Source of the DNA: Halobacterium sp. R2-5
Lineage (GTDB): Archaea > Halobacteriota > Halobacteria > Halobacteriales > Halobacteriaceae
DNA length: 64,000 nt
Reading direction: 5' to 3'
Assembly (NCBI RefSeq): GCF_011734195.1
Contig: NZ_JAANTH010000003.1
Coordinates: 186,001-250,000 of the forward strand
Below, one piece after another: positions 15,051-44,062 of this stretch. A model generated the notes under the pieces. It had not been told where the DNA came from. It searched no databases and saw only the letters and a program-made list of their open reading frames with translations. The position numbers and the translations under genes were made by a program. How positions within the stretch are numbered: position 1 is the first letter of the stretch; each line of letters starts with the position of its first letter.

Positions 15051-15145
15051 TAATCATGACCACATTGAAGTACCCCGACGCTGTGGGGTAAGCACGAATG
15101 CTGCAATCGGCTCACGACGACGCTTTCCCCGAAGTAGAGCCACTG
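15051..15145. repeat. 95-bp repeat upstream of recombinase 1 (copy A)
   Basis: Aligns without gaps to 41546-41640, with 80 of 95 bases identical by hand count. It ends 35 bp before the recombinase 1 start. It may be a promoter/leader or part of the recombination site of the module. Confidence 0.7.
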
Positions 15146-15179
15146 AGAACAGGTTCGGAGAACCGTGCGGGTTCGGTCA

Positions 15180-16406
15180 TTGTCTGACCGGACACTCTCG
15201 ACGCCGCTCGACGACAGCTTCGAGCGGTACCTCCAGGACAAGGGGAAAGGCCGCGGTGGCGACGGCGGGAACTATCGACGTAATGCAGCACGCGAACTAA
15301 GGCGGTTCGTGGAGTGGGCTGCCGGCGACCGCGGTGGTGACAGCTGGACTGGGATCGTCCCCGATGACGTTGACCGAGAACCTACCTTCGAGGACCTTGA
15401 CGAACGTGTCTTCCGTGAATACGCGCGCCATCTCGCTGGTGACCGGGGCCTCAAACAGAATACTGTACAAACCTATTATCGCTATATCTCTGCGTGGTGT
15501 GGCTGGTGCGTCAACGAGGGCTACCTCGAGGCGCACTACGCGCAGCGGGCGAGCGCGATGGCGCCGCTGCCTGAAGACGACGGCCGCAAGCCCGGTGACC
15601 AGCAGGCCTGGACGTCCGAACAGCGCCACGCACTCACTCGGTACGTCGACGAGCAGGCCCGTGACACCATCGAGACCTACACGACTCTCCCGGAGGATGT
15701 TCCCCCTCTTGAGCGGCAGCGAGCGCGCTACGTGGCGTTGAAGGCGGCTCGTGACCGCGCTCTCGTGTTTGTCCTTGCGTACACCGCTGTCCGAGTTGGC
15801 GAGGTCCTTCGGGACCCCAACGACCCACGCCGGCGTGGGGTTCGGTGGGAGGAGATCTCGCTTGAGGATGGGAGTATGGATGTCTACCGAAAGAAACAGC
15901 AGTGGGATGCGGCGAGCCTTCCTGATCCGGTAATTTCGCCGCTGCGGAGCTATCGTCAGTTGATGGATCCTCCGTCGGAGCGGTGGCCTGTGTTTCCGAC
16001 GTTCGACCAGCGAACGCTCGCAACCCTCGTCCAAGACGGGCTGGCCGATCGCGGATTTCAACCGGATGCAATCGACGAGCGACGTGCTGCCTACGCTCGT
16101 GACTTCTTACTGGCCCTCGACGAGGATATTCGGCCGTCGTCGATTACGACGGATGGTGCACGATCAATCCTCCAACGGCTCTCCGAAGCCGCTGAAATCG
16201 ACATCGATGACTCCAAACACGATTATCTCGCCCCCCATGGTGGACGACGTGGGATGGGTGAGGTCCTCGTCCGAGCGTTTGGGTACACGGTTGCTGCCCG
16301 ATATCTGGACAACTCCGAAGAAATGGTCCGGGAACACTACTCGCACATCGAGGCTGGCGAACTAGGCGATGTTGCCACAGAAGCGCTTAGTGAGATTGAG
16401 AACTGA
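15180..16406 (+). CDS. Tyrosine recombinase/integrase 1
   Basis: 408 residues from a TTG at 15180, chosen because it aligns with the MSDD start of the paralogue at 42818; a GTG at 15165 also fits. The N-terminal SAM-like core-binding domain (FERYLQDKGKGRGGDG) occupies about residues 10-120. The catalytic domain has AYTAVRVGEVLR with the first Arg, HGGRRGMGEVLVRAFGY with the His-x-x-Arg pair, and REHYSHIEAGE with the nucleophilic Tyr. The set is complete, so it should be active. It and the copy at 42818 are near-identical over most of their length. It carries out site-specific recombination of the replicon. Confidence 0.92.
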   Translation: MSDRTLSTPLDDSFERYLQDKGKGRGGDGGNYRRNAARELRRFVEWAAGDRGGDSWTGIVPDDVDREPTFEDLDERVFREYARHLAGDRGLKQNTVQTYYRYISAWCGWCVNEGYLEAHYAQRASAMAPLPEDDGRKPGDQQAWTSEQRHALTRYVDEQARDTIETYTTLPEDVPPLERQRARYVALKAARDRALVFVLAYTAVRVGEVLRDPNDPRRRGVRWEEISLEDGSMDVYRKKQQWDAASLPDPVISPLRSYRQLMDPPSERWPVFPTFDQRTLATLVQDGLADRGFQPDAIDERRAAYARDFLLALDEDIRPSSITTDGARSILQRLSEAAEIDIDDSKHDYLAPHGGRRGMGEVLVRAFGYTVAARYLDNSEEMVREHYSHIEAGELGDVATEALSEIEN

Positions 16407-28623: not shown

Positions 28624-29683
28624 TTAATTGCTTTGTGAACACCATTTAGTAATACGCACACGGAGGTCGTCCGTTACCTGTTCCGTCCCTGAGTCACCAC
28701 CGATATCGGGGGTTCGTGGGGCATCCGTGTCGGCCAATTGTTTCGCTACGGCGGTCCTCAACGTTCGTGCAACCGCCTGTTCATCGAGGTAGTCCCAGAG
28801 AAGTTCCCATGAGAGCACTGCTCCAATCGGATTCGCGATCTCCTTACCCATGATATCGAAGGCACTTCCGTGAACCGGCTCGAACATCGACGGGTATTCT
28901 CCCGTCGGGTTGATGTTCGTCGACGGAGCAAGACCCATGCTTCCGGAGATACCCGCGCCAAGGTCGGTGAGAATGTCGCCAAAGAGGTTCGAGGCGACGA
29001 TAACGTCGAACTCCTCTGGTCGCCTGACGAGGTCCATGCTAGCCGCATCGACGAGCAGACGTTCGACATCGACCTCGGGATAGTCTTGATGGACTTCACT
29101 TACAATATCGTCAGAAGACCATTCCATGGACCTGTGCGTTGGATTTTGTGATACTCGTGAGCTTGTGGTCGCGTTCAGTTGCAGCCTCGAACGCCGCACG
29201 GACGATTGTCTCCGTTCCGTCGCGAGTGTAAAGAGCACTCTGGACAGCGACCTCGTTCTTGTACCCCTGATATTCTCTGCCGCCAATGTCAGCATACTCT
29301 CCCTCCGTGTTCTGTCTATAAACGACAAAGTCGATATCTCCGTTGGCGTAGCCTTGTAGTGGACTGGTAACGCCCTCAAATAGGTAGATGGGTCGTTTAC
29401 AGATCTGCTGGTTGAATCCCTTCGTGATTACCAATCTGAGTCCACGCAGGGTCACGTGGTCGGGGACATCGGGATGCCCGACCGCACCGAGAAAGATGGC
29501 ATCGTAATCACGGAGCTCGTCAAGTCCATTGTTCGGCATCATCGCCCCTTTGTGGAGATATCTCTCGGAACCCCAATCGTACTGGATAGTATCGAACGAT
29601 ACGCCGCACTTGTTGGCTGCCGCCTCAACGACCGGCATTGAGTAATCTACAACTTCGGTTCCGATACCGTCACCCGGTATCAC
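28624..29683 (-). pseudogene. Isocitrate/isopropylmalate-type (tartrate) dehydrogenase, frameshifted
   Basis: The first part (from near 29683) has IPGDGIGTEVVDYSMPVV, GAVGHPDVPDHVTLRGLRL and FVVYRQNTEGEYADIGG; the second (from about 29120) has DVIVASNLFGDILTDLGAGI and FEPVHGSAFDIMGK. Together they make a complete decarboxylating hydroxyacid dehydrogenase of the tartrate/isopropylmalate type. The frame breaks at about 29115-29130, where GMVF should run into WDDIV; two bases appear to be missing. The extreme 5' end also lacks a clear ATG. Either a recent pseudogene or a sequence error. It would fit the catabolism of an imported hydroxy-dicarboxylate. Confidence 0.82.
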
Positions 29684-30232
29684 TGCTATCTTATAAGATA
29701 TTAGTTACCATACTGCAGACTATTACAATTTTTGAATCCGAGGTCTGTGACGTAGTGATGACCGTGTCGAAAACCGTAACCCGTTGAGACATACGAGATC
29801 GGAAGGGAGTAGAAGGATTCGTTCGCCTTCTGCTGGTGCGTGAGCAGGAGTTCGAGAACGAACAGACCATGCTGTTGATCGAACCCCACCGTGGGAACTC
29901 ATCGCCAGCGACGTAGAGTACGCCGCCTAACAGAAAGAGAAACCAAACGTCGCTGAGTTACGTTAGTAGTATAAAGATCGAGAACAGAGTCCTGCGCCAA
30001 TCCAGGAAGCGCTACCAAGAATTCATCAAGAAGACGAAGCTCTGGATCGTCGTTGGGAGGGATGAAGTTCACTCAACTTTCGGCGAAGCTGTATGCCGAA
30101 GCACGTCGTGTTCGCTGAGCCGCTCAGTACCAATCAGTTGACTCCCCTTGGTAACGGGACTTCCCCTGTCCGCGACGACTCGCCGTCATTGCCAGGGAAT
30201 TGAGGTAGTGCGAAAACGATGGAGTAGCCCGC
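29684..30232. other. Intergenic stretch
   Basis: About 550 bp. A minus-strand frame at 29701-29889 (ends YVTDLGFKNC) has no recognised relatives. The remainder shows no hairpin, IS terminus or convincing gene. Confidence 0.35.
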
Positions 30233-30568
30233 TTAATATCCGAGTCTTCCGAGCGCCGTCTCGACGTCGGTAACGCCGTCGATTGTCAATGAGATATTCG
30301 TGGACGTTCCGTCGGTAACCTCTGCGCTTGAGCCGTCCCAGTGAATCCGTGCTTCCTCCTCGAGCCTGTTCTCGCCCAACGAAACGCGTTGTGGCGCGCT
30401 ATCTGGAAGTTGGGAAAGTACCTGGCTGAGTTGCCTGAGCTGTGCGGGTTCGAGGACTACGCTGCTTCTGTCTGGGGTCCGCAGTACGATATCGCCGTCA
30501 GAATAGACGGCCACCTCGATACCAGTCGGGGTGACTTCGTAATGCACGCGTTTGGCTTCGCCACTCAT
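30233..30568 (-). CDS. Hypothetical protein (third gene of a three-gene operon)
   Basis: 111 residues, not recognised. Short alternating strands such as VHYEVTPTGIEVAVYSDGDI and LSLTID-like ends suggest a small beta-rich fold; no signal or membrane segment. The start overlaps the stop of the gene at 30565 by four bases, so it is translated with it. No homologue family comes to mind. Confidence 0.6.
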   Translation of the reverse strand: MSGEAKRVHYEVTPTGIEVAVYSDGDIVLRTPDRSSVVLEPAQLRQLSQVLSQLPDSAPQRVSLGENRLEEEARIHWDGSSAEVTDGTSTNISLTIDGVTDVETALGRLGY

Positions 30569-30843
30569 CCTTCCACCTCATCATGATGGACCGTTTCCCG
30601 ACTCAATTGCTGAGAGAGACTCTCGCTGTGGATACGTTGGGCCAGTTGGCCTGCCCGATCACTGTCCTGCGCAGGACTTGGGGAACCAGTATCGGCGAAT
30701 TGGATGGCGTGGCCGGTCGTTTCGAGGTGGTGACTGTTCGTGTGATACGGTTGTGCAAGCCGCTGACTGTCTGTCTCGACAGGTTTGAGGGAGACCACTG
30801 TCGAAGAGACAGCCTGCAGCCGAGGGATATAGTTGTATTCCAT
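30565..30843 (-). CDS. Hypothetical small protein (second gene of the operon)
   Basis: 92 residues, hydrophilic, rich in Gln, Ser and His (DSDRAGQLAQRIHSESLSQQ). No known domain. It lies 51 bp after the 238-residue gene and overlaps the next gene by four bases. The call rests on operon position and the coupled overlap. Confidence 0.5.
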   Translation of the reverse strand: MEYNYIPRLQAVSSTVVSLKPVETDSQRLAQPYHTNSHHLETTGHAIQFADTGSPSPAQDSDRAGQLAQRIHSESLSQQLSRETVHHDEVEG

Positions 30844-30894
30844 TACAGGTCAGATTTATTGATAGTCATGTTTAACTCTTTGTCAGATCTCAAC

Positions 30895-31611
30895 TCACGT
30901 GGAAACGATCTTCGCCTGGATCGCTTGAGACTCATCTCCGCTCCAGTCATACGAGATTTGCTGCCGCTCCAACATTTCCGCGATAAGATGACCAATATCC
31001 TCGTCCGACATGGTCATCGTATCGAAGGACTCGTACCCGATTGATGGACTATCGGGGTCATTCTGTGCTGAAAAGCTTACAGCTCCGAGAACCTCGGTTC
31101 CCGCATCTTCAAGCTCTTCAACCAAATTCTCGATGGCGGGCCCACCACAGGAATGACAGCCAGATTGCCCAATATTCGTCACAACACTGTGGCCCCTCAA
31201 ATCAGCCATTGCATCCCGGAACGGAAGGGAATAACACCGCAACGGGTTCACTGTCTCAATCTTACATGTGCCTCCATGTACACGAGCGCGTAAATTAAAA
31301 TCTGGATGATAATACCCGGCATAGCCCAGGTCAATATCCAGGAGCTCAAGCGCATCGTCAAGGAACCGATCGACATACGGGTTCGAGATCAGCTTGCGCG
31401 CCGGTGGACCCAACGCGAGCAAGCCGTCCCTGCGCTCTCGAAGCACCTCGGCCAACGTGAGCGGGCCGGTATTCGAACCTACCTGAGCATACTTTGCTTC
31501 CAGCTGCTCGAGTTTCGTCGGGCCGAGACCAACTAGGTCGTCGAGATGGTCGCGAAGCACAATATTCGACGCTGCTACCGCGTTCGTGGAGGGCTTCTGT
31601 AGCATGTCCAA
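30895..31611 (-). CDS. Hypothetical protein with CxxC motif (first gene of the operon)
   Basis: 238 residues. The N-terminal 45 or so contain LDDLVGLGPTKLEQLEAKY, like a helix-hairpin-helix. The C-terminal half has VVTNIGQSGCHSCGGPAIEN with two close cysteines and an ending like SYDWSGDESQAIQAKI. The C-terminal half is loosely reminiscent of DUF6891, but I would not assign it. Cytoplasmic. Head of a minus-strand operon with two small genes. Possible metal or redox site at the Cys pair. Confidence 0.65.
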   Translation of the reverse strand: MDMLQKPSTNAVAASNIVLRDHLDDLVGLGPTKLEQLEAKYAQVGSNTGPLTLAEVLRERRDGLLALGPPARKLISNPYVDRFLDDALELLDIDLGYAGYYHPDFNLRARVHGGTCKIETVNPLRCYSLPFRDAMADLRGHSVVTNIGQSGCHSCGGPAIENLVEELEDAGTEVLGAVSFSAQNDPDSPSIGYESFDTMTMSDEDIGHLIAEMLERQQISYDWSGDESQAIQAKIVST

Positions 31612-31718
31612 CTATATACGCCCACGTGTCACTGATAAGGGTTTGCCAAAGCAAGATCAAAACTCCCTGCGACCCGAACAGGAGTTTTCCCTCGCAAAAA
31701 AGGCGTGCGGCCCGTTTA

Positions 31719-32114
31719 CTAGGACAATTGAGACGATTCGGAGGCGTTATCCGCCGAGAGCAGTTTTGGTGCGGCCTGATGTAGCTCAAGGACCCTATGT
31801 CCACGCGTCGTCAACGAGACCGTCTTCCGCTGCTGATTGTACGCTAAAACACGAACATCAGCCATCATTGGCAGATGTGATTGGAGAATTGACACGTTCG
31901 CAGCGGTCCGATCTTGACCGTGCTCCGTCGAAAGGTGATCAGCGATGTCCCGAACCGGGACCACCTCATCGTCTTCGTCCGCCACGAACTGGAGGATCCA
32001 GCGCCGCCGCTGGTTCCGGAGTACCTCATACGCAATTCCGGGATCGATTTCCGGTTCGGGCTTGGTATCTTGATTCTGGGTGACAGCTTCTCTGAGCGTG
32101 CTGAGTAGGCTCAT
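31719..32114 (-). CDS. DUF7344-type winged-helix protein (copy 1)
   Basis: 131 residues from the ATG at 32114. YEVLRNQRRRWILQFVADED followed by VPVRDIADHLS, then VSILQSHLPMMADVRVLAYN, is the haloarchaeal DUF7344 winged-helix pattern: an NxRRR opening, a helix-turn-helix, then SLxxxHLP and the wing. It is a likely transcription regulator. It is divergent from the family X gene at 32309, with 195 bp between them, and is repeated beside other family X copies. Confidence 0.72.
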   Translation of the reverse strand: MSLLSTLREAVTQNQDTKPEPEIDPGIAYEVLRNQRRRWILQFVADEDDEVVPVRDIADHLSTEHGQDRTAANVSILQSHLPMMADVRVLAYNQQRKTVSLTTRGHRVLELHQAAPKLLSADNASESSQLS

Positions 32115-32308
32115 CACGTTCCTCCTACCGGAGCCTACGCAGCACCACATGCGGGGTCAAGACCACCTCAGTCTCCTGATATCCGCGATCAACCTAGTAT
32201 CGAAGTTGGCACCCCTCCCTCCGACTGGTGTCTGTCGGCAGTGTGCTGTAGGTATATCAACGATTTGGCAACCCCTTAAGAGGCTGTTATGGATATGGAT
32301 GAGTACCG

Positions 32309-32800
32309 ATGGTCCCCACAATCGTAGACCTCGCCCCAGGCGCGCAAATGTACATCGCCTGGATCGATCCAGACGAATCGTCGTGCCAAGTTGACCGGCT
32401 TCGCATCCAAGAGCACTACGAGACCGACAACGGTCGTCATGTCGTGTATGCGTCCAGCTCCGATCACGAAATACACCTCATCGAGTCTGACCACCATCCG
32501 CCTATTGCGGTAAACAAAGCTCCAGATTCACTCGAAGAGCACGTCATCGACGACGACACCGAATATCGGGGCGGCCCTGTCTTTGGTATTGAACGGCGGT
32601 CTCCGCCGCTTGTATTGGACGTCCTGTGCTCCGCTCTCGAATACGGCTGCAGGCCTCTTGACGCCATCAACCTCGTTGCGCTTGGCTTTGAACTCTACTC
32701 CGTAGACGAGTACGTGCTGTGGCGTTCTGCCCCCGAAGAAAGCCTCCATGCTGACCTCGATGAAACGATCTCGCGGATGATTGCCAACGCCAAACCCTAG
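32309..32800 (+). CDS. Uncharacterised protein, family X copy 1
   Basis: 163 residues. Related proteins are encoded at 34894 and 35949. Shared features: N-terminal YIAWIDPDESSCQVDRLRIQ (WID, Cys and Q conserved), a central GGPVFGIERR, and C-terminal LVLDVLCSALEYGC then LVALGFELYSVDEYVLWR and LDETISRMI. A beta-rich N-terminal half with a helical C-terminal half is likely. No signal peptide or membrane helix. Function unknown. It is divergent from a DUF7344 regulator. Confidence 0.68.
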   Translation: MVPTIVDLAPGAQMYIAWIDPDESSCQVDRLRIQEHYETDNGRHVVYASSSDHEIHLIESDHHPPIAVNKAPDSLEEHVIDDDTEYRGGPVFGIERRSPPLVLDVLCSALEYGCRPLDAINLVALGFELYSVDEYVLWRSAPEESLHADLDETISRMIANAKP

Positions 32801-32918
32801 CCGTCCTCGCCTCCTCTTTCACAGACTAGCGTCTGCGAGACACACCAAGAGAACCAGCGGCGTCGAGACGCCGAAACTTCCAAAATGCCGGATTACGGGT
32901 CGGCGGTGGCGCGGTCGG

Positions 32919-33221
32919 TCACATGTCCGAGTCGTTGCGCCTCTCAAATGACGTTAGTGACCGTTGGACTGCAAGGACACTCTGCTCCGTCCTGAGGAAC
33001 CCACCTTGCCAGATCGCATGCGTCACTTCGTTGATTGTGACCTGGGCGAGAAACCCGTACTCATCATAGAGATTTTCGTAGGTGGCGTCATAGCCCAGAT
33101 TGTTGAGGAGGAGGACGTAGTCGTCAATTGGATAAACGTCTCCTTGGAAGATACGTGGCTCGCCGTTGTAGAGACGCCCACGGAACCGTTCGATTAGTTC
33201 CTCGTGAGATGGACGCGTCAT
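32919..33221 (-). CDS. Hypothetical protein
   Basis: 100 residues, unrecognised. Starts MTRPSHEELIERFRGRLYNG and has YPIDDYVLLLNNLGYDATYENLYDEYGF in two adjoining parts; tyrosine-rich and acidic, cytoplasmic. It is transcribed toward the family X gene at 32309, convergent. The consistent acidic composition supports a real gene, but no relative can be named. Confidence 0.5.
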   Translation of the reverse strand: MTRPSHEELIERFRGRLYNGEPRIFQGDVYPIDDYVLLLNNLGYDATYENLYDEYGFLAQVTINEVTHAIWQGGFLRTEQSVLAVQRSLTSFERRNDSDM

Positions 33222-33469
33222 TGGGTGTCACCTGCTGGGCTAACAGTTGGCTGTACTACTGGAGGGCGCTCCGTGGAGGTCTGCTTCACGGTATTTGCTA
33301 CGAATTGTTGATTTCCAATAAGTCTTCGTCGGACATTTCTTCCAGCGGTGATCCACCAATGCTACTGACATCCTATATGCGATAGAGGTTGTTCTTCTGT
33401 TCCCACGTCGCAGACAGCTCCGAGAAACGCCAAAGCGTCTTACCCGACCGACAGCTAAACCCCTTCGTA

Positions 33470-34633
33470 ATGCCCTCCCCCATCTCCGCAGACGACCACG
33501 ACCTCCGCGAAGTCCCTCCAGCAATGCATCACGACGGCGCCGCCCTAGCTGACTTCGACCCGACGCCCAACGAACCCGACCTCGACATCTGGCCGCTCGC
33601 GACCGACAAAGGTGCGAAGACATTCTCCGGTGACCCCGACGACCTCGTCCCGATCTACAACAGCTATCCGGAGCCACACGTCCGCTGGCTCACTCCCAAG
33701 CAGTTCAAATACGAGTTCGGCTACCACTCGAACAACCCCGCCGAAATCGTCGCCGACGACGCCCTTGAGGACATCAACGACCGGCGCCGACTGACACTCT
33801 CGAAGACGCGCATGGAGGCGTTCCGTCGCGTCGCCCAGCTGTGGAACGGCGAGTACGTCGGCCCTCGCGACGTCCACCTCCTCGCCGACAAAGCGCCCTC
33901 CTGGAACGACGTCGTCGGCGACCTCGACCAGCGCCAGCTCGACGCGCTCCGCCCGACGGTGCACCGCCACGACGACGAGCTTGTAAACGCATTCGGCAAA
34001 TTCGGATGGTTCGAGCCCGAGAACACCGTTTCGGGCTGGTTTAAGCCCACGTATATCGCGCGGTCGCGCGCTGACTACGACATTGAGGAGCGAGCGCGCA
34101 CACTCATCAACGGGCGCGACGATCTCCCGAACCTCCGGGGCGACCCCCACGAAGGCTTGACGCACCGCTTCGGCGTCGGTGTCGAGGCTGCCCGCGCCGC
34201 CTTCTGCGAGAACCGCAGCGTCAAGACGTACAAACAGGTCGACGACTACACCGTCGATCTCCTCGAATACGAGGCCACTGGTGATCGCGTCGTTGGCGAG
34301 GTGCTCACCCATCACCACAACAACCGGCTCTACCGGAGCACCTTCCGGAAGCTGGCCGACCTCCAGGCGTCTGCCGTCCTCGTCTTCGACACGCGTTCGA
34401 CCGCTCGCCGCGTCCTGAACCACTGGCACGACAGATGCGGCGACGTCCCCGGCGCGCCCTTCGAGAGCGAACTGAACGTCGACTGGACGCGCTCGAAGTT
34501 CGCGGAGGCCGCCGCCGACCCAGCCCGCGACTGGTCCGTTCAGGAACTACTCACCATCTCCCAGCTCTGGAAGCTCGTCTTTGGCGAGGGACGGGCACCG
34601 CCCGCCCGCAAACTCATGTCCCTAAATTGGTAA
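33470..34633 (+). CDS. Uncharacterised haloarchaeal protein, possible PD-(D/E)xK-like nuclease
   Basis: 387 residues from the ATG at 33470. Strong haloarchaeal codon use and a well-conserved look, but no named family. Near residues 265-330 there is VDLLEYEATGDRVVGEVLTH then STFRKLADLQASAVLVFDTR. A D-x(n)-GEV pattern on two strands followed by a helix with RK and a VLVFD strand resembles the restriction-endonuclease-like core; this is only suggestive. Two conserved-looking W-rich motifs (VRWLTPKQFKYEFGYH, FGWFEPENTVSGWFKPTYI) precede it. It stands alone between family X copies. Confidence 0.6.
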   Translation: MPSPISADDHDLREVPPAMHHDGAALADFDPTPNEPDLDIWPLATDKGAKTFSGDPDDLVPIYNSYPEPHVRWLTPKQFKYEFGYHSNNPAEIVADDALEDINDRRRLTLSKTRMEAFRRVAQLWNGEYVGPRDVHLLADKAPSWNDVVGDLDQRQLDALRPTVHRHDDELVNAFGKFGWFEPENTVSGWFKPTYIARSRADYDIEERARTLINGRDDLPNLRGDPHEGLTHRFGVGVEAARAAFCENRSVKTYKQVDDYTVDLLEYEATGDRVVGEVLTHHHNNRLYRSTFRKLADLQASAVLVFDTRSTARRVLNHWHDRCGDVPGAPFESELNVDWTRSKFAEAAADPARDWSVQELLTISQLWKLVFGEGRAPPARKLMSLNW

Positions 34634-34893
34634 CTCTCCGTTCCGGACTCACCGCTGTTTCTTCCCTAACTCCACTACAGTACACATATTATACTGGATG
34701 CTCGGCGGGTGCCCGCACCTACTCAAATCCGGTGGCTCGGGGCGTTCCGCAGTTGGTTTCGGGTGGGGAAGACGGTGGACGGCGCCGCAACTACTCTTAG
34801 AATCTGATACGTAGCCGAATCTTCTCAGTTGGCGGTGGCTACTGAGAGTCGTCCGACCGGATGTCGACGGAGCCAACTAAGAGTCGCGTGGAA

Positions 34894-35397
34894 TCAGGGT
34901 GCGGCGCTCGCGAGCATCTCGTCGATCGTTTCCTCGACGTTCGCGCGGAGCTCTTCCTCCGGCACCCCACGGCTCAGCGCGTAGTCCACGTCCGCGTAGA
35001 TCTCGAAGCCCAACGCGACCAGATCCATCACCTCGGCTGGGGTGAACCCCGATTCGAGGAGCGAGAGGAGCGTCCGCCAGAGAAGGAGGCCAGAGGTCGG
35101 CATGATGGCGAATACGGGGCGTCCCGGGACGGTATCCTGGCCGCGGATTCTCTGCAATTCACCCGATTCGTCCAACAAATCCATCACAACGCCCTCTCCC
35201 ATCGCGTCCGTGTCGAACGGTTTCTGGACGACCTGGATGCGATGGTCGTCGCCGGCGAGGTCAGCGACGTATACCCCCGGTTCGGCGGTGTAGACGTCCT
35301 GCACGATGAGATTTTCTGCCTGACACGTTTGGTCGGAGTCAATCCAGGAGACGTAAATGGGCTCTCCCGGCGAACACTTGTTTAGTGGAACTGACAT
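34894..35397 (-). CDS. Uncharacterised protein, family X copy 2
   Basis: 167 residues from the ATG at 35397. Same layout as the genes at 32309 and 35949: IYVSWIDSDQTCQAENLIVQ, then GRPVFAIMPTSG, then LSLLESGFTPAEVMDLVALG, FEIYADVDYALSR and NVEETIDEML. The Cys after WID and the DLVALGFE block are kept. Sequence divergence between copies is high, so the duplication is old. It follows a DUF7344 gene at 35477 on the same strand with about 80 bp between, probably one operon. Confidence 0.68.
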   Translation of the reverse strand: MSVPLNKCSPGEPIYVSWIDSDQTCQAENLIVQDVYTAEPGVYVADLAGDDHRIQVVQKPFDTDAMGEGVVMDLLDESGELQRIRGQDTVPGRPVFAIMPTSGLLLWRTLLSLLESGFTPAEVMDLVALGFEIYADVDYALSRGVPEEELRANVEETIDEMLASAAP

Positions 35398-35476
35398 AGG
35401 CGACACTAATTATCCAAGAGAGCTACTTAAGGACTCGCCAAAGGCTGAGGGGAGCGGGCGCGCCACCGTCGTGCGG

Positions 35477-35860
35477 TTACTGTGTCCGCTCGCAGACGTC
35501 GCGAATCACCTCCGCGAGCGCCGACGTCGTCGGGGTCAAGCGGAGGACGCCGTGGTCGCTGTCCCACTCAACGATGTCGTGCTCGTCCAGCACTGGCGCG
35601 TGGGACTGGTGCAGACTGACGTACGCTGCCTTGTAGGCGTCTGACGGGATGTCGAAGGCGGCGGCGCCGGTTTCCTTGGCGGCGACCGCGCGCGCCAGTT
35701 CTTCGAGAGTGACTTTCTCGGCCTCCAGGTTGGCGAGTTGGAGGAGGACGAGCCGCCGGCGGCGAGCGGAAAGGATGCGATATACTTCGTCGGTCTCCAG
35801 GTCGATGCTTGGGCGATCGGAAACGTTGCTGGTGGTCGGGATGAGGCGTCTCAGGTTCAT
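35477..35860 (-). CDS. DUF7344-type winged-helix protein (copy 2)
   Basis: 127 residues from the ATG at 35860. VYRILSARRRRLVLLQLANL, then TLEELARAVAA and YVSLHQSHAPVLDEHDIVEW, matches the winged-helix layout of the copy at 31719 (RRR start, HTH, S-LxxxHxP, wing). It lies upstream of family X copy 2 and about 90 bp beyond the start of copy 3, all on the minus strand. A local regulator of these genes is likely but unproven. Confidence 0.72.
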   Translation of the reverse strand: MNLRRLIPTTSNVSDRPSIDLETDEVYRILSARRRRLVLLQLANLEAEKVTLEELARAVAAKETGAAAFDIPSDAYKAAYVSLHQSHAPVLDEHDIVEWDSDHGVLRLTPTTSALAEVIRDVCERTQ

Positions 35861-35948
35861 CAACGCCTTCTCGACGCGGGCCTGAGACGCTGTTCATCCG
35901 CACCGTGACCATTCTGTGGCGAGTTACTGTAGGATTGCGAGAAGAGGC

Positions 35949-36476
35949 CTACAAGTCCTGGTCGTGGTACTTGTTGGTGTCTTTAATCAGCATTGAGATC
36001 GTCCCATACACGTCGGCGCGGAGGGAGGATTTTGGCTTCCGGCGTATTTCAGTATACTCTTCGGCCGGGTAGAGATCCATCTCCAGCGCAACTATGTCCA
36101 TCCCGTCTTCTGCTGAGAATCCCATCTCAAGCATCCGCACCAGAATCTGCCAGAGAAGCGAGCCAGGAGACCTCGCGATACCGAATACGGGATAGCACGT
36201 GTAGTCGGCGGCGTCGTAGATGCCAATCTGGTCGTTCGGCCTGTCGTGGAGACCAGGGATAGCGACCAGAGAGTACACGTCGTCGACCGGTTTGGCCTGA
36301 ACCAGCTGGAACCAGGTATCGGTGTCGCTGTTGGAAACGGTGACGACGTACGTTCCCCAAGCGGCCTGATAGGAATCCTGCACACGGAGTTGTTCTGCTC
36401 TACAGTACTCGTTCGAATCAATCCAGGCGACCCAGACGTGGTCGCCTGCTTCGAGGTTGGTGATTGTGGGCGGCAT
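35949..36476 (-). CDS. Uncharacterised protein, family X copy 3
   Basis: 175 residues from the ATG at 36476. VWVAWIDSNEYCRAEQLRVQ, CYPVFGIARSPGSLLWQIL, MLEMGFSAEDGMDIVALEMD and LYPAEEYTEIRRKPKSSLRA keep all the marks of the family. The Cys after WID is present. It starts the minus-strand run 36476-34894 (X3, DUF7344, X2). No export signal. Function unknown. Confidence 0.68.
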   Translation of the reverse strand: MPPTITNLEAGDHVWVAWIDSNEYCRAEQLRVQDSYQAAWGTYVVTVSNSDTDTWFQLVQAKPVDDVYSLVAIPGLHDRPNDQIGIYDAADYTCYPVFGIARSPGSLLWQILVRMLEMGFSAEDGMDIVALEMDLYPAEEYTEIRRKPKSSLRADVYGTISMLIKDTNKYHDQDL

Positions 36477-36718
36477 CTGCACATCAGAGTATCCGAGATG
36501 CCCGGAAAAGGACTAGTCAAATCTGTTAAGTGGGTACAGCACGCCGTCGGCAACTACTCGTCGTCCCCAACTATCTTTGGAACAGAATCGGCGAGACGGT
36601 GGATACAGTGCAGCGAGACGAAATCCTACCCGTTCTCTGGTCGGTCATCTGGGAGCCCCCACCAATGATTGACGCGCGAGAGATTCGTTCTCGATGTACT
36701 CGCGGCCGAATGTTGGTC

Positions 36719-37645
36719 TCATTGTGGTAGTGGCACCTCGTAGTCAGCCGCCAGCTCCTGGAATTCGTTCCACTCCGGGAGCCGGTCGTCGTCGACCTCG
36801 CCGTGCGTCTCGAGGTAGCGGAGCAAGGCGTCGATTTCGTCTTCGAGGCCATACTTCGCCGCCTGCTCTCGGAGGTCCGCCTCGTCGACGTCGACGTGGC
36901 TGAGCAGGAGGAGACAGTACGAGCGGTGGCGGCTGCCGTCGTCAATCAGCAGCGTGTGACAGCAGAGCTCCGCCGGCGAGACTGCGTCGAGGTCTTCGGA
37001 GTAGACGTAGTAGCGGTGGCCGGTGAGCAGGAACTGGAGGTCGAAGGCCGCGAATCGAGCGAGGCCGGTTTCGTGGAACCCCTCTGCGTCGATCTCCTTC
37101 TCGGCCTGCGCGAGGAATTCGTCGTAGTCCTCCCAGAGAATCGTCCCCTTCGGGGCGACGGCTTCGAGGCGTTGACGATGCAGATGGTGTGCGAGTTCAC
37201 GGGCGAATTCGTGGAGGCGGTCGAAATCAGCGTTGAACTCGTAGTGGCCGTCGTCCGTCCCGACGAGACCACGGTCACGAAACCGCTTGAGGACGCGGTT
37301 GACCGTGTTGCGGTAGTTGTCGCTCCGGTCGGCGATCTCGGAGACGGTTCGCGGCTGGTCGAGGTAGTACAGCACCTCGAGTGCCTTGCCGGTCAGTAGC
37401 TCGGGGAAGGTGATATGGGAGTGCTGGCGGACAAGATCCTGGTAGCGTTCGACGGCACGAGCATCCGACGGGACGACCCGTTTTCGCCGCCCGTCGCGTT
37501 CCGTGTAGACGAGCCCCTTCTCGACGAGTTCGGCGACAGCACGAGAGAGGTAACTCTCGCTGTGGTTGAGCTTCGTCGCGAGCTCGGAGATCGTGTCGCC
37601 GCGGTCGACCGTGGCGAGGACCTCGAGTTCGATTCGCCGGAGCAC
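36719..37645 (-). CDS. Two-domain winged-helix regulator
   Basis: 308 residues from a GTG at 37645; no in-frame ATG lies nearby. Residues 1-60 form a MarR-like HTH (SELATKLNHSESYLSRAVAE then LVEKGLVYTERDGR). A second HTH at about 95-130 reads TVSEIADRSDNYRNTVNRVL then GLVGTDDGHYEF. The C-terminal 170 residues contain LQFLLTGHRYYVYSEDLDAV and HTLLIDDGSRHRSYCLLLLS, which I do not recognise as a named domain; it could sense a ligand or pair with a toxin as in AbiEi-type antitoxins. The promoter is covered by a 50-bp palindrome, and the TATA box lies only about 25-30 bp before the start, so the mRNA is probably leaderless and self-regulated. Confidence 0.75.
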   Translation of the reverse strand: MLRRIELEVLATVDRGDTISELATKLNHSESYLSRAVAELVEKGLVYTERDGRRKRVVPSDARAVERYQDLVRQHSHITFPELLTGKALEVLYYLDQPRTVSEIADRSDNYRNTVNRVLKRFRDRGLVGTDDGHYEFNADFDRLHEFARELAHHLHRQRLEAVAPKGTILWEDYDEFLAQAEKEIDAEGFHETGLARFAAFDLQFLLTGHRYYVYSEDLDAVSPAELCCHTLLIDDGSRHRSYCLLLLSHVDVDEADLREQAAKYGLEDEIDALLRYLETHGEVDDDRLPEWNEFQELAADYEVPLPQ

Positions 37646-37647
37646 GG

Positions 37648-37697
37648 TGTAACATAGTACGAAACTTGTATATAAATAAGTTTCGAGTAGTGTTACA
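37648..37697. promoter_or_regulatory. 50-bp two-tier palindrome over the regulator promoter
   Basis: Outer arms TGTAACA and TGTTACA; inner arms CGAAACTT and AAGTTTCG; spacers of five bases between inner and outer arms on each side; centre GTATATAAAT containing the TATA box. The symmetry is exact in both tiers. The start codon of the regulator follows two bases after the palindrome on the minus strand. This is a strong candidate for an autorepressor site. Confidence 0.7.
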
Positions 37698-37728
37698 GCC
37701 AGCGGTCGCGAGAACTGCCTCCATCGTC

Positions 37729-37769
37729 TTAACCAACAAAACTATGAATTCGTGGGTTGTGTTGGTTAA
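37729..37769. promoter_or_regulatory. TTAACCAACA inverted repeat, copy 4
   Basis: Arms TTAACCAACA(A) at 37729-37739 and TGTTGGTTAA at 37760-37769, spacer 20 bases. It ends 14 bp before the ATG of the gene at 37784, the only copy directly before a recognisable start codon, so it probably controls that gene. Confidence 0.6.
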
Positions 37770-37783
37770 CACGAGAGTAGCCG

Positions 37784-38107
37784 ATGTCCTACGAACCCCC
37801 GACCCCACCGGCGAACCTTCCGACGGAGATCGTCACCACGCTCAACGAGTCGGACCCGGAGCAGCTCCGAGACGTTGCAACGTACGCTGAGGCACTCGCC
37901 GAGCACAAGGAACGAGAGGCCCGTCTCGAAGAGTCGGCAGATCAAGAAGAGGTCGAAGAGCGACCAGACGATCTCCCGGACGACGTCCCTGCCAAAGCGA
38001 CGATCACGATCAAGGAGATCAACGACAACCGCTACTACTACTGGCAGTGGCGAGAAGGAGAGAAGATACGCTCTCAGTACAAGGGCCCGGTCAACCCCGA
38101 CGAGTAA
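37784..38107 (+). CDS. Small conserved haloarchaeal protein with DUF6788-like ending
   Basis: 107 residues. A charged helical N-terminal region (ATYAEALAEHKEREARLEES) leads to NRYYYWQWREGEKIRSQYKG, which resembles the YWYLYWREGGRxKSKY core of DUF6788 proteins. No signal peptide. It sits between two palindromic operators and the second origin. Small proteins of this type are common on haloarchaeal plasmids; role unknown. Confidence 0.65.
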   Translation: MSYEPPTPPANLPTEIVTTLNESDPEQLRDVATYAEALAEHKEREARLEESADQEEVEERPDDLPDDVPAKATITIKEINDNRYYYWQWREGEKIRSQYKGPVNPDE

Positions 38108-38128
38108 AACTCGATGAGGGAGGACACC

Positions 38129-38737
38129 CACCCCACGTTTCCGTCGTAACTGGGTGTAAGTGGAGGTGGTGACGCTGATTCGGAAGGGACCACCCCCCGC
38201 ATTTCCGTCGTTTCTCCACGACGGCGTAGGGAGAGGCTACGATAGTGCTATGCAGCTACTAATTCTGTTGACCTAGAACCAATCTAGACATGAACTAACT
38301 TCTCGGACACATAGATTAAAGTAGTATGGCTGAGAAATGCTTATTAAGTGTACTTCGACCAGCGAGGGGGCGAAGTACTTCGCCCCCTCAGATGAAACGA
38401 TCCTTTCCAGCTGCTTCTGTAGACGGCCAGTATTGGATGGATAAGCCGCTTTCGTCTTTGGTAACTCGTCGTGGATGTCTTCTTCGAGTCCCCTCCCCAC
38501 CTGTTCGGTGATTACGACGGAAACGTGGGGTGTGTGGGTTTGGGATTCGACATCGAGACGACGCTTCCGTCTACGGGTTTCCTATCTCACGTCGGAAACG
38601 CGGCTATATTGTAAGCAATCCAATTCCGCCGAATTACGGCATTTTCCGGCTGATATCGGACAAGGAACGTCGGAAACGTGGGGTGGCGTTCTCCACTAGA
38701 TTTATACTCCCCCCCCGCTCACACCGTGTGATATTCA
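38129..38737. other. Replication origin 2, left arm (boxes and A/T-rich unwinding region)
   Basis: Boxes with core CGGAAACGTGGGG. Two lie in reverse orientation (38129-38147, 38190-38211); then an A/T-rich stretch (about 38245-38350); then forward boxes at 38514-38532 and 38667-38686, plus a weak one at 38588-38603 lacking the G-run. Inverted boxes flanking an A/T-rich segment beside orc1 is the standard haloarchaeal origin. A 26-bp perfect palindrome lies inside (38364-38389). The TATA box of orc1 (TTTATA) is at about 38700. Confidence 0.85.
38364..38389. repeat. Perfect 26-bp palindrome inside origin 2
   Basis: GAGGGGGCGAAGT followed directly by ACTTCGCCCCCTC, with no spacer. It lies next to the A/T-rich part of the origin and could form a cruciform or bind a dimer. 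Confidence 0.75.
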
Positions 38738-39970
38738 ATGACGCCCGACTCTTCACCCAGTTCTGTCGACGATCCACTCTTTGAATCCGGGCATCGCATC
38801 TTCGCGAACAAGGATCTCCTGAAAATCGGCCACGTGCCGGAGGCTGACCGGATCGTCGGTCGCGACGAGGAAATCTCAAAGCTCGCGAAACGTCTCAACG
38901 GTGCTGTCCACGGGTACTCCCCGGAAAACGTGATGATCTACGGGAAAACTGGGACCGGCAAATCTCTCGTTTCAAAACACGTCTGTCAACGAGCTCAAAA
39001 TGCCGCTCAGGATGGCGTCGAGATTGGAACAGCATATATCGACTGTGCTGAAGACAATACCGAGACCCAAGCAATCTCCTCACTTGCCGCGAAGCTGAAC
39101 GATGAATCTTCGACTGGAATCTCCGTCCCTCATACCGGCCTCAGTACGTCGAAATACTACAAACTCCTCTGGAAGACGCTCGACGCTCAATTCGATTCTG
39201 TGATCATCATCCTCGACGAGATCGATCTGATGAACGACGACAGCGTGCTGATGAAGCTCTCGCGCGCTGAGGAGGCGGGGAAAATCGACTGTAACGTCGG
39301 CGTCATCGCGATCAGCAACAAGATCCAGTACGTCGACAACGTGAACGAGCGCGTGAAAAGCAGCTTCCAGCACAAGGAGCTGTTCTTCAAGCCATACGAC
39401 GCCAACCAGCTCCGGGAGATCATGTTCAACCGTGAGGACGCCTTCCAGGACGGCGTCCTTTCCGAGGACGTGATTCCGCTCTCGGCGGCCTTCGCCGCGC
39501 AAGAACACGGCGATGCTCGGAAGGCGATCGACATTCTTCGCCACGCCGGCGAGGTCGCCTACGAGGCCGAGGCAGAGCAGGTGACGGAGGAACACGTCCG
39601 CCAGGCACAGCAGCACGCCGAAAAGGACCGGTTCAGAGAACTCGTGAACGGCGCACCCACGCAGGCGAAGGCGGCGTTGCTGGCGCTCACGGATCTGAGT
39701 GTCAACAGCAATGACGATGCGTTCCTCACGAGTCAGGTGTACGACCAGTACGAACGCATCTGCAACCATCTCGATATGGATATCCTCTCCGTCCGTCGAT
39801 TCCGCGACATCCTGAAAGAGCAAGCCTTCCTCGGGGTTGTCGAAATCGAGAAGATCAACAAGGGGAGTGCGGGCGGCATCCACCTCCAGAACCGACTCAT
39901 CGAAGATCCCCAGGTCGTCCGCGAAACGATCCTCGAGGACAGCCGGATGCAGGACTGGACTCGCGAGTAG
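38738..39970 (+). CDS. orc1: Orc1/Cdc6 replication initiator
   Basis: 410 residues. IFANKDLLKIGHVPEADRIV then GRDEEISKL opens the conserved domain; Walker A is GKTGTGKS, Walker B is VIIILDEIDLM, sensor 1 is VIAISNK and sensor 2 is GDARKAIDIL. The C-terminal winged helix spans about residues 310-410 (DILSVRRFRDILKEQAFLGV). The protein is complete and should bind the flanking boxes and load MCM helicase. It is transcribed from within the origin, with boxes on both sides, so it probably regulates itself. It belongs to a different subgroup from the partial gene at 1-221, judged by the different leader and different box cores. Confidence 0.95.
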   Translation: MTPDSSPSSVDDPLFESGHRIFANKDLLKIGHVPEADRIVGRDEEISKLAKRLNGAVHGYSPENVMIYGKTGTGKSLVSKHVCQRAQNAAQDGVEIGTAYIDCAEDNTETQAISSLAAKLNDESSTGISVPHTGLSTSKYYKLLWKTLDAQFDSVIIILDEIDLMNDDSVLMKLSRAEEAGKIDCNVGVIAISNKIQYVDNVNERVKSSFQHKELFFKPYDANQLREIMFNREDAFQDGVLSEDVIPLSAAFAAQEHGDARKAIDILRHAGEVAYEAEAEQVTEEHVRQAQQHAEKDRFRELVNGAPTQAKAALLALTDLSVNSNDDAFLTSQVYDQYERICNHLDMDILSVRRFRDILKEQAFLGVVEIEKINKGSAGGIHLQNRLIEDPQVVRETILEDSRMQDWTRE

Positions 39971-39996
39971 TGACCTCCTACTACTGAGTGGGTGCG

Positions 39997-40102
39997 GACG
40001 ACGGAAATCCGGGGTGGGGCGTGAGGAAACGACGGAAACGAGGGGGCCGAAAATTACGTCGGAAACGTGGGGTTGGATCGAAACGACGGAAACCAGGGGT
40101 GG
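39997..40102 (+). repeat. Replication origin 2, right-hand box cluster
   Basis: Four forward boxes 3' of orc1: 39997-40017, 40028-40046, 40056-40076 and 40082-40102. Each holds CGGAAA followed by a G-run, e.g. ACGTCGGAAACGTGGGGTTG. Spacing is close to 27 bp. They match the boxes upstream of the gene, so the gene is embedded in its own origin. Confidence 0.82.
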
Positions 40103-40108
40103 GGTCCA

Positions 40109-41150
40109 CTACGACAGTTCGTTGGTAGCCCCGTACGAGCTCAAAACGGCGTCCCTCTCACCGAAGAGCTCTCGGCGAATGTTGGACTGGTCCCACCCGA
40201 GCGGTGAAAGCACGCTCTCGACCGCTCTAACCAGCTGCGTCTCGTAGTACGAGGCGTCGTAGGTTCGATCCCCTCGTGGGCGAGGGCGACCCGGTCTCGC
40301 GAGGATTTCTCATCGTCGACGACCACGTACTCGATATCCTGACCCGGATGGACTGCCAGTTCCTGCTCGCGGGCTCGCTTCAAGGCGGCCACGTTCTGGG
40401 TATTCTGTGAGTAGCCTTCCAGCGGCTTGGAGACACGGTTCCGCTCGACGAGCCGCTCTACTGCTATGTTGCCCGCCTACAGTTCGTCGATTGCTCGTTC
40501 GAGACGCCCGAGCACCGCGTCCGGTGACCGCGTGGGATCGAGCCGGTCGAGACAGTCCCGCTGGACGTCCTCGATGAACGGCGGGGTCGAGCGCTGCCGG
40601 GCTTCGATGCCTCTGATCTTGAAGTCGTCGTCGCCGGCGACCTTCCCGAAGTACTTCGTCAGCGCGCCGGCGTCGCTCTCGCGCTGCGGGACGAACGCCA
40701 CCCAGTCGTAGTGGGCCCCGTGTTCAAGCCGAATCTCGACGCAGTCGGTGATCTCCGTCGTGAGCGTCTCGAGATCCTCGCGGATCTCGTCGTCGACGTC
40801 GGGGTCCGGGGTCACCCAGATAGAGTCAACGATGCCGTGGACGACCCGCCAGCCGCCGGCTTCCAGCCGCTGTTTCACCGTCAACAGAATCTCGCGAACG
40901 AACGCGTTAATCGCCTCGTGGCACTCGATGCGGCCGAACTTCGCGTTGCTGAACCCCTGATACCCGAAGCAGGTGACGAGAATCCACTTCAGCGCTCCCG
41001 ACCGCCCCTCGAGTTCAGCCAGGCGGTCCTCGTCGGGGTCGTCCCGTTCCTTCTCGCGACGGATGGCCGCCTTGATCTCGTCGCGAGCGTCGATAATCGG
41101 CTGTAGCACGTCGACGAGGTAGCCCCGGTCGTCGCAGATCGAGTACCCGA
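40109..41150 (-). pseudogene. Family B DNA polymerase, C-terminal remnant
   Basis: From about 41150 the minus strand encodes IPGLGYSICDDRGYLVDVLQ, then LVTCFGYQGFSNAKFGRIEC (the motif B/YG region), HGIVDSIWVTPDPD (motif C) and AGALTKYFGK. This is the palm-thumb half of a haloarchaeal plasmid-type PolB. A TAG stops the frame at 40477. Similarity resumes with VSKPLEGYSQNTQNVAALKR and AVHPGQDIEYVVVDD, then a frameshift near 40265 before YDASYYETQLVRAVESVLSP. The N-terminal exonuclease half is absent. Clearly inactive. Confidence 0.82.
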
Positions 41151-41500
41151 GGCCGGGGATCTGACCGGGATCAGTATCGGGACCGCAAAACTCCTGCAAC
41201 AGTTTTCCACCAAGGACGTCTCCGCCGTTCGCCACGGCCTCGTCTCGGTGTCGACCCTCATCCAGTATCTCGACCCGGATACGGTGTTCAAGTTCCTCCA
41301 CATCTACACCGCGCGTATTGCTGACACCGGTGGGATCGGTATCTTCACTGTCGACAATGCGGCGCACGACCCGCAGACGCTCAGCACCATCACGAGCGAG
41401 TTCGAGGGGGGTAATCGAACTCCGCGAAACTGACGACGGCGAACGGCAACTCCGCGTCAAAGGGTTCCCCGCTGCATCCCGTACGTGGCATCCGTTCTGA
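41150..41500 (+). pseudogene. RAD55/RecA-like haloarchaeal protein, C-terminal remnant
   Basis: The plus strand reads DLTGISIGTAKLLQQFS, VRHGLVSVSTLIQYLDPDTV, FKFLHIYTARIADTGGIGIF and, after a +1/-2 slip near 41412, VIELRETDDGERQLRVKGFP, ending at 41500. This matches the C-terminal third of haloarchaeal RecA-superfamily (DUF7504/RAD55-like) proteins. The P-loop half is missing, replaced at the same point by the truncated polymerase on the other strand. Confidence 0.65.
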
Positions 41501-41545
41501 CCAGCCGCCAAACGCCTGATACAAACGTCAGTGACTGCCGGATAG

Positions 41546-41640
41546 TAATCACGACCAGATTGAAGTACCCCGCCGCCGTCGGTGAAGCACAAATGCTGCA
41601 ATCGGCTCAGAAAGACGCTTCCCCCAGGGTAGAGCCACTG
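41546..41640. repeat. 95-bp repeat upstream of the recombinase 2 module (copy B)
   Basis: Counterpart of 15051-15145, ungapped, 80 of 95 identical. Here the toxin-antitoxin pair lies between the repeat and the recombinase, whereas copy A is directly before its recombinase. Confidence 0.7.
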
Positions 41641-41707
41641 CGAGCGGCTGATCCACCGCGAGTGTCGGGTCGGTTGCGAGTTCCGCTCTGTCGCCGGAAG
41701 CCTTATC

Positions 41708-41727
41708 ACGAATTATCGATAATTCGT
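41708..41727. promoter_or_regulatory. 20-bp perfect palindrome before the toxin-antitoxin operon
   Basis: ACGAATTATC followed by GATAATTCGT, ending seven bases before the ATG at 41735. It covers the expected promoter and start-site region, so it is a likely operator for the antitoxin's winged helix. Confidence 0.7.
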
Positions 41728-42817: not shown

Positions 42818-44062
42818 ATGAGCGACGATCGGTCTTCTTCCCGTTCCAAAAGCTCTCTCAACGACAGCTTCGAGCGCTACCTCCAAGACAAGGGGAAAGG
42901 CCGTGGGGGCGATGGGGGGAACTACCGACGTAACGCTGCACGCGAGCTCGAGCGGTTCGCCGAGTGGGCCGCGGGCGACCGCGGCGACGATGACTGGACC
43001 GGGATCGTCCCCGACGACGTCGACCGGAAACCGACCTTCGACGATCTCGACGAACGCGTCTTCCGGGAGTACGCTCGGCATCTCGGTGGAGATCGGGGAC
43101 TCAAGCAGAACACGGTACAAACCTATTATCGCTATATCTCTGCGTGGTGTGGCTGGTGTGTCAACGAGGGCTATCTCGACGCGCATTATGCGCAGCGGGC
43201 GAGTGCGATGGCGCCGTTGCCGGAGGACGACGGCCGAAAGCCCGGTGACCAGCAGGCCTGGACGTCCGAACAGCGCCACGCTCTCACCCGCTACGTCGAC
43301 GAACGGGCCCGCGACGCCGTCGAAGCGTACACGACACTCCCGGAGGATACCAAGCCCCTCGACAAGCAGCGAGCACGCTACGCGGCGCTGAAGGCGGCTC
43401 GTGACCGGGCGCTGGTGTTCATTCTCGCGTACACCGCTGTCCGCGTCGGGGAACTTCTCCGGGATCCGAACGATCCGCGTCGACGTGGCGTCCGCTGGGA
43501 GGACCTCTCGCTCGACGAGGGGAGTATGGACGTCTACCGGAAGAAACAGCAGTGGGATGCCGCGAGTCTCCCTGACCCGGTGATCTCGCCGCTACGGAGC
43601 TACCGCCAGTTGATGGACCCACCGACGGAGCGCTGGCCGGTGTTTCCCACGTTCGACCAGCGGACGCTCGCAGGGCTCGTCCAGGATGGGCTCGCCGACC
43701 GAGGGGAACATACGGAGGCAATCGCCGAACGCCGTGAGGAGTACGCTCGCGACCTCCTCCTGGCGCTCGATGAGGATATTCGGCCGCCCTCGATTACGAC
43801 GGACGGCGCACGCTCGATTCTCCAGCGACTCTCAGAGGCCGCAGAGATAGACATCGACCATCCGAAACACGATTACCTTGCTCCACACGGCGGCCGGCGT
43901 GGAATGGGTGAAGTTCTCGTTCGAGCATTCGGATACACGGTTGCCGCCCGGTATCTCGACAATTCAGAGGAGATGGTGAGAGAGCGGTATTCACATATCG
44001 AGGCCGGAGAACTCGGTGATGTCGCTACTGAGGCGCTCGAGGAGATCGATAGTATACCGTAG
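42818..44062 (+). CDS. Tyrosine recombinase/integrase 2
   Basis: 414 residues from the ATG at 42818. It is a close paralogue of the protein at 15180; differences cluster in the first 20 residues, around residues 170-190, and around 285-300. Catalytic residues are intact: AYTAVRVGELLR, HGGRRGMGEVLVRAFGY and VRERYSHIEAGE. Two recombinases this similar on one molecule could act on each other's sites and drive inversion or deletion of the 27 kb between them. It lies directly behind the PIN toxin gene. Confidence 0.92.
   Translation: MSDDRSSSRSKSSLNDSFERYLQDKGKGRGGDGGNYRRNAARELERFAEWAAGDRGDDDWTGIVPDDVDRKPTFDDLDERVFREYARHLGGDRGLKQNTVQTYYRYISAWCGWCVNEGYLDAHYAQRASAMAPLPEDDGRKPGDQQAWTSEQRHALTRYVDERARDAVEAYTTLPEDTKPLDKQRARYAALKAARDRALVFILAYTAVRVGELLRDPNDPRRRGVRWEDLSLDEGSMDVYRKKQQWDAASLPDPVISPLRSYRQLMDPPTERWPVFPTFDQRTLAGLVQDGLADRGEHTEAIAERREEYARDLLLALDEDIRPPSITTDGARSILQRLSEAAEIDIDHPKHDYLAPHGGRRGMGEVLVRAFGYTVAARYLDNSEEMVRERYSHIEAGELGDVATEALEEIDSIP

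Follow-up and report, generated by a model that had tools for sequence, protein, structure and literature searches.

A locally duplicated haloarchaeal plasmid protein family related to a common but uncurated helix-turn-helix domain

What kind of system is encoded where three divergent small-protein genes lie among two DUF7344 winged-helix genes, next to the replication module of a haloarchaeal plasmid? The window, which is the whole stretch of 64,000 nucleotides that was analysed, lies on C3, a contig of 269,981 bases; the haloarchaeal genome to which this contig belongs comprises 2.98 Mb in 5 contigs. In gene order, the locus consists of DUF7344-1 (31719..32150, minus strand), X1 (32309..32800, plus strand, 163 aa), which is arranged divergently from DUF7344-1, a 100-aa ORF (32919..33221, minus strand) without recognised relatives in family libraries, a 387-aa protein starting at 33470 (33470..34633, plus strand; the 33470 protein), X2 (34894..35406, minus strand, 170 aa, GTG start), DUF7344-2 (35477..35863, minus strand), which lies between the genes for X2 and X3 and shares their strand, and X3 (35949..36482, minus strand, 177 aa, starting at GTG 36482 or ATG 36476). 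A first-pass annotation had likened this repeated pairing of a variable small protein with a local regulator to a modular system for sensing, conflict or immunity, of a kind undescribed to its author's knowledge.

The three ORFs were confirmed as true paralogues, with 36–38% identity and 37 invariant columns, and a whole-genome search with X2 retrieved X1 at an E-value of 9e-25 and X3 at 4e-22, far beyond chance. The sequence blocks by which they had been recognised can all be aligned, namely the N-terminal WID-x(4-5)-C motif (WIDPDESSC in X1, with five intervening residues, WIDSDQTC in X2, and WIDSNEYC in X3), the PVF(G/A)I centre (PVFGI in X1 and X3, PVFAI in X2), and the DLVALGFE-like C-terminal block (NLVALGFE, DLVALGFE, and DIVALEMD in X1, X2, and X3, respectively). 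The assignment of X to a single paralogous family, the members of which look regulatory, is supported.

The PVFGI centre and the DLVALGFE block do not represent a novel fold signature; they belong to a diverged helix-turn-helix (HTH) domain with four helices that resembles sigma region 4. The SGFTPAEVMDLVALGFEIYADVDYALSRGVPEEELRANVEETIDEM block resembles a haloarchaeal HTH pattern, SPAEALDYW...EWAxxRGVSQQAVSxNVxxAKxKL. A query based on this pattern matched real plasmid proteins, which were aligned without any X sequence. The consensus of this plasmid and virus HTH family is SPAExLDYW-x10-EWAxxRGxSQQxVSxNVxxAKxKL, and examples are the plasmid proteins WP_204749957, WP_226024040, and WP_227378353 and the PH1 virus protein ORF45 (AGC65570). 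The X-free profile gave matches in 54 of 292 genomes and, in a blind whole-genome scan of these 292 genomes, found X2 at an E-value of 9e-5, a score reached by none of 3000 shuffles. When the X profile was run over 392 genomes, two of the five weak matches (G235:C76 and G088:C1) proved to be strong members of the HTH family in the same frame. Furthermore, hhalign comparison of the X family with 29 HTH domains gave a probability of 96% and a score of 52.9. None of 300 column shuffles scored above 19.5, and the controls were likewise far lower: reversing the alignment gave 11.0, and the scores for the unrelated DUF7344 and 33470 families were 10.7 and 16.0, respectively. Compared singly with the HTH alignment, X2 scored 49.8, X3 32.5 (probability 78%), and X1 18.1. 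X2 is the sole member in which the HTH is recognised from sequence alone; X1 obtains no score against the HTH profile and, because its single-sequence score is so low, is placed in the family solely through its siblings X2 and X3 and its structural model.

X and the HTH family have in common a C-terminal four-helix domain and a variable N-terminal part. The N-terminal parts of the HTH family are very varied and include zinc-ribbon-like, helical, and other forms (in genomes such as L042, L055, L060, and L064). The relatives often carry an (F)PVY/FV strand ahead of the HTH that resembles the PVFGI of X; in several of them, a strand such as PFFYPVYVxKPDWW or PFFFPVFVKYPEGW lies immediately N-terminal of the HTH and may be read, by eye, as the counterpart of the PVFGI centre. 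In contrast, the conserved W residues of the family are missing in X, where the Trp of helix 3, ahead of the recognition helix (EWAxxR), is replaced by Tyr (DEYVLWR in X1, VDYALSR in X2, and EEYTEIR in X3), and the N-terminal beta domain of X was unrecognised in the HTH relatives inspected. The HTH family occurs in uncharacterised haloarchaeal plasmid, viral, and chromosomal proteins and is common on plasmids, and its members that were scanned matched no Pfam model above the cut-off. X itself is unnamed in Pfam, NCBIfam, and PHROGs; its C-terminal half is a known kind of domain, a haloarchaeal mobile-element HTH. The X family is new in name, yet a variant of a known protein kind.

An AF2 model of X1 built on the three sequences (mean pLDDT 64.7) contains an N-terminal set of beta strands and C-terminal helices at residues 100–111, 116–126, 132–139, and 143–160 (pLDDT 73–87). 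In the less confident X2 model, the elements follow one another as in X1, and a Foldseek search with this poor model returned nothing useful. For X1, the Foldseek E-values were non-significant (best 0.36 in the PDB and 0.011 in the viral set), and the better-probability PDB matches were Tudor/chromo-type barrels for one part of the model and region 4 of SigE, AlgU, SigF, and SigH for another. The four-helix HTH topology of the model is similar to that of sigma-70 region 4 (SigE, AlgU, and SigF; Foldseek probability 0.57–0.87) without a sequence match; to our knowledge, archaea are without sigma factors. The barrel part was matched by Tudor/chromo SH3-like domains (Foldseek probability 0.85 for 6hq9), likewise without a sequence match and with a low-depth model. 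With moderate confidence, the N terminus of X is thus modelled from three sequences as a small SH3/Tudor-like barrel. The matches in the viral set included small haloviral proteins, among them a 75-aa protein of the PH1 virus. PH1 has two 75-aa ORFs, one of which is a member of the HTH family at 44 bits and, judged by size and fold, is probably the protein matched.

With slightly better than even confidence, we propose that X1–X3 are plasmid regulators of local genes that are composed of an SH3/Tudor-like domain, the PVFGI strand, and the sigma-region-4-like four-helix HTH. A promoter-like element is shared by two of the three genes, as CCTTAAGAGGCTGTTATGGATA (32274..32295, plus strand), located 14–35 bases upstream of X1, and CCTTAAGTAGCTCTCTTGGATA (35411..35432, minus strand), located 5–26 bases upstream of X2. 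The 22-base pattern of this element, CCTTAAGnnGCTnTnnTGGATA, matches the window twice against 0.02 expected; since the pattern was derived from the X1/X2 pair itself, the pairwise test is the relevant one, and in this test none of 60 shuffles equalled the best match found over 24 bases between the upstream regions of X1 and X2 (18/24). With up to three mismatches, no additional match was found in the window. Exact copies in the genome are confined to the X1 and X2 sites, and no other close match was found there: two places have three mismatches, a smaller number than in the reversed control. The element is plausibly a promoter because it contains a TATA-like TTAAG, and it may also serve as an operator.

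The recurrence of an X neighbourhood in other genomes was not borne out as far as searched, an outcome that the first-pass annotation had itself named as refuting its reading, and X occurs at this locus only. Profile and protein searches of genomes, of which the profile searches should still detect homologues at the distance that separates X1 from X2, found no X in 391 genomes of the class or 392 genomes of the order (two heavily overlapping draws), and no other member in 26 genomes of the same family or in 170 and 125 genomes of two other families. None was found when viral contigs were scanned three times with X queries and GTDB contigs twice, using short peptide patterns that could miss relatives diverged as X1 is from X2, nor in the plasmids or phages searched; some collections may lack entries for this genome or very close ones. 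Weak BLAST matches of X2 were also obtained within the same family, and those inspected looked like coincidental similarity to unrelated genes or frames.

The right boundary of the locus is formed by a haloarchaeal plasmid replication module (36684..41160) that comprises an HVO_2833-type regulator, a 107-aa protein, orc4, and a truncated polB. Identity of approximately 94% to many haloarchaeal plasmids begins at 36684 and runs rightwards, and the stretch 30000–36683 is found only in this plasmid. The HVO_2833-type regulator at the left edge of the module is followed in other plasmids by a DUF6036 nucleotidyltransferase, and in another plasmid the site beside the module is occupied by Piwi/MBL/AAA genes. 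The X locus stands in this variable position, where other plasmids hold other cargo, and is therefore best interpreted as cargo, specific to the lineage, at a variable site that adjoins the conserved replication module. At 36684–36719, the DUF6036 gene is missing and the unique region starts directly after the regulator gene, and the type B DNA polymerase, which comes after orc4 in other plasmids, is present as its C-terminal part only (40477–41709, minus strand). Two similar integrase genes (15165–16406 and 42818–44062, approximately 27.6 kb apart) and the 84–85% repeats close to them (15051–15148 and 41546–41643) flank a segment containing the X locus and the replication module. Also within the window, an isocitrate/isopropylmalate dehydrogenase-type gene (28624–29683, minus strand) extends across two overlapping frames with PF00180 in both, which looks like a frameshift or a sequencing error, and an ORF at 30895–31611 (minus strand) matches DUF6891 barely above the cut-off, with a helix-hairpin-helix-like stretch, noted by eye, preceding the match.

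A family known from a single locus in a region unique to one plasmid, with relatives that are common on plasmids and present in viruses, could also consist of rapidly evolving remnants, duplicated yet without a present role, of a virus or plasmid that had integrated. This explanation is rather unlikely, however, in view of the three intact frames with coding-like GC content by codon position (GC1/GC2/GC3 approximately 0.6/0.4/0.7), the motifs that are still conserved despite deep divergence, and the promoter element retained at X1 and X2.

X1 and X2 differ further from the HTH family by an unusual, acidic recognition helix. The net charge of this helix is −4 in X1, −6 in X2, and +1 in X3, compared with −2 to +5 in 29 HTH relatives; the helices of X1 and X2 are thus more negative than that of any relative, which argues against plain DNA binding, and ordinary DNA contact may have been lost in these two proteins. 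In a more far-reaching reading, which we consider distinctly unlikely, the acidic recognition helix would mark an HTH turned into a protein-binding module that, combined with the Tudor-like barrel, diversified copies, and a shared private promoter element, would constitute an adaptor system of this plasmid lineage working with DUF7344.

Both DUF7344 genes are well above the Pfam cut-off (52.6 bits for DUF7344-1 and 76.4 bits for DUF7344-2, against 27.8), as had been annotated. Like X, DUF7344 (PF24035) is a small haloarchaeal HTH-type protein, and its genes adjoin those of X, but the two show no similarity to each other (hhalign probability 0.1%). DUF7344 is unmentioned in the literature searched. 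The genome contains 23 copies, eight of them on C3, where DUF7344 genes are also clustered at 165.6 and 166.4 kb; two copies in 4.8 kb exceed the plasmid average. A recent duplication of a combined DUF7344 and X unit was considered and rejected, because the two DUF7344 proteins share only 23% identity, have closer relatives among the other copies, and do not group together in a tree. The pairing of X with DUF7344 is repeated only inside this one locus.

The ORF of the 33470 protein is real and belongs to a scattered haloarchaeal family, with homologues at 35–51% identity in six of 115 other genomes and three weaker matches. Its description as possibly nuclease-like comes down to the conserved E/D/E residues: the family conserves GDxxEGLxHR, a D, and E-[VI]-[LM]-T-x-H. 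Set against the catalytic D...ExK of PD-(D/E)XK nucleases, the E, the D, and E-[VI]-[LM]-T are conserved, but the Lys is absent from its usual place. No Pfam, PADLOC, or PDB match was found for the protein, and both X and the HTH family are absent from the neighbourhoods of its homologues. The closest homologue (51%) is encoded in an island that also carries HNH and DNA-methylase genes, as named from their sequences.

Read as a modular system for sensing, conflict, or immunity, the locus would pair each X with a DUF7344 regulator and use the 33470 protein as its effector nuclease. The alternation of X and DUF7344 genes, their local density, the DUF7344 gene adjoining that closest homologue in its island, and the Piwi/MBL/AAA genes beside the module of another plasmid are consistent with such a system. 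However, X recurs nowhere searched, the two DUF7344 genes are not sisters, a clear DUF7344 gene is found in only one of the six homologue neighbourhoods, in a genome with 51 copies, and PADLOC is blank for X, DUF7344, and the 33470 protein, returning only generic HTH matches of a neighbouring regulator. The immunity reading is unsupported by these results, and we regard it as highly improbable.

The chances are slighter still that each X protein senses redox state or metals as a one-component system through the cysteine of WID-x(4-5)-C, which is the only cysteine invariant across X1–X3. A precedent is a thiol-based, single-domain haloarchaeal regulator of the TrmB family (PMC9426492); in X, however, the cysteine lies between two modelled strands, and no ligand residues were identified. 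Least probable of all is an interpretation of X and its adjacent DUF7344 genes as toxin-antitoxin-like addiction pairs that stabilise the plasmid, since, although the genes are small, adjacent, and paired, and a DUF6036 nucleotidyltransferase follows the same regulator in other plasmids at the present position of X, X has an HTH instead of an enzyme domain and no recognised toxin fold, and the layout, with one DUF7344 gene divergent from an X gene and the other between two X genes, is not that of a toxin-antitoxin operon.

Under the proposal that X1–X3 are regulators of local plasmid genes, the three genes would have arisen by duplication and then diverged in place on the plasmid. Their products most likely adjust how local plasmid genes, the X genes among them, are transcribed, and autoregulation could proceed through the element common to the X1 and X2 promoters. 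A division of labour among the three may be envisaged, in which X3, having kept a near-neutral recognition helix, may still bind DNA, and X1 and X2, with their acidic helices, more likely act by contacting other proteins, for instance as subunits with a partner or antagonist role.

The X proteins themselves represent a narrow case of cargo divergence next to a plasmid replication module. On the other hand, they illustrate that a seemingly unnamed, locally duplicated family can be linked to an HTH domain that is common in haloarchaea yet uncurated, and a curated model for this domain would aid the annotation of many plasmid, virus, and chromosomal proteins.
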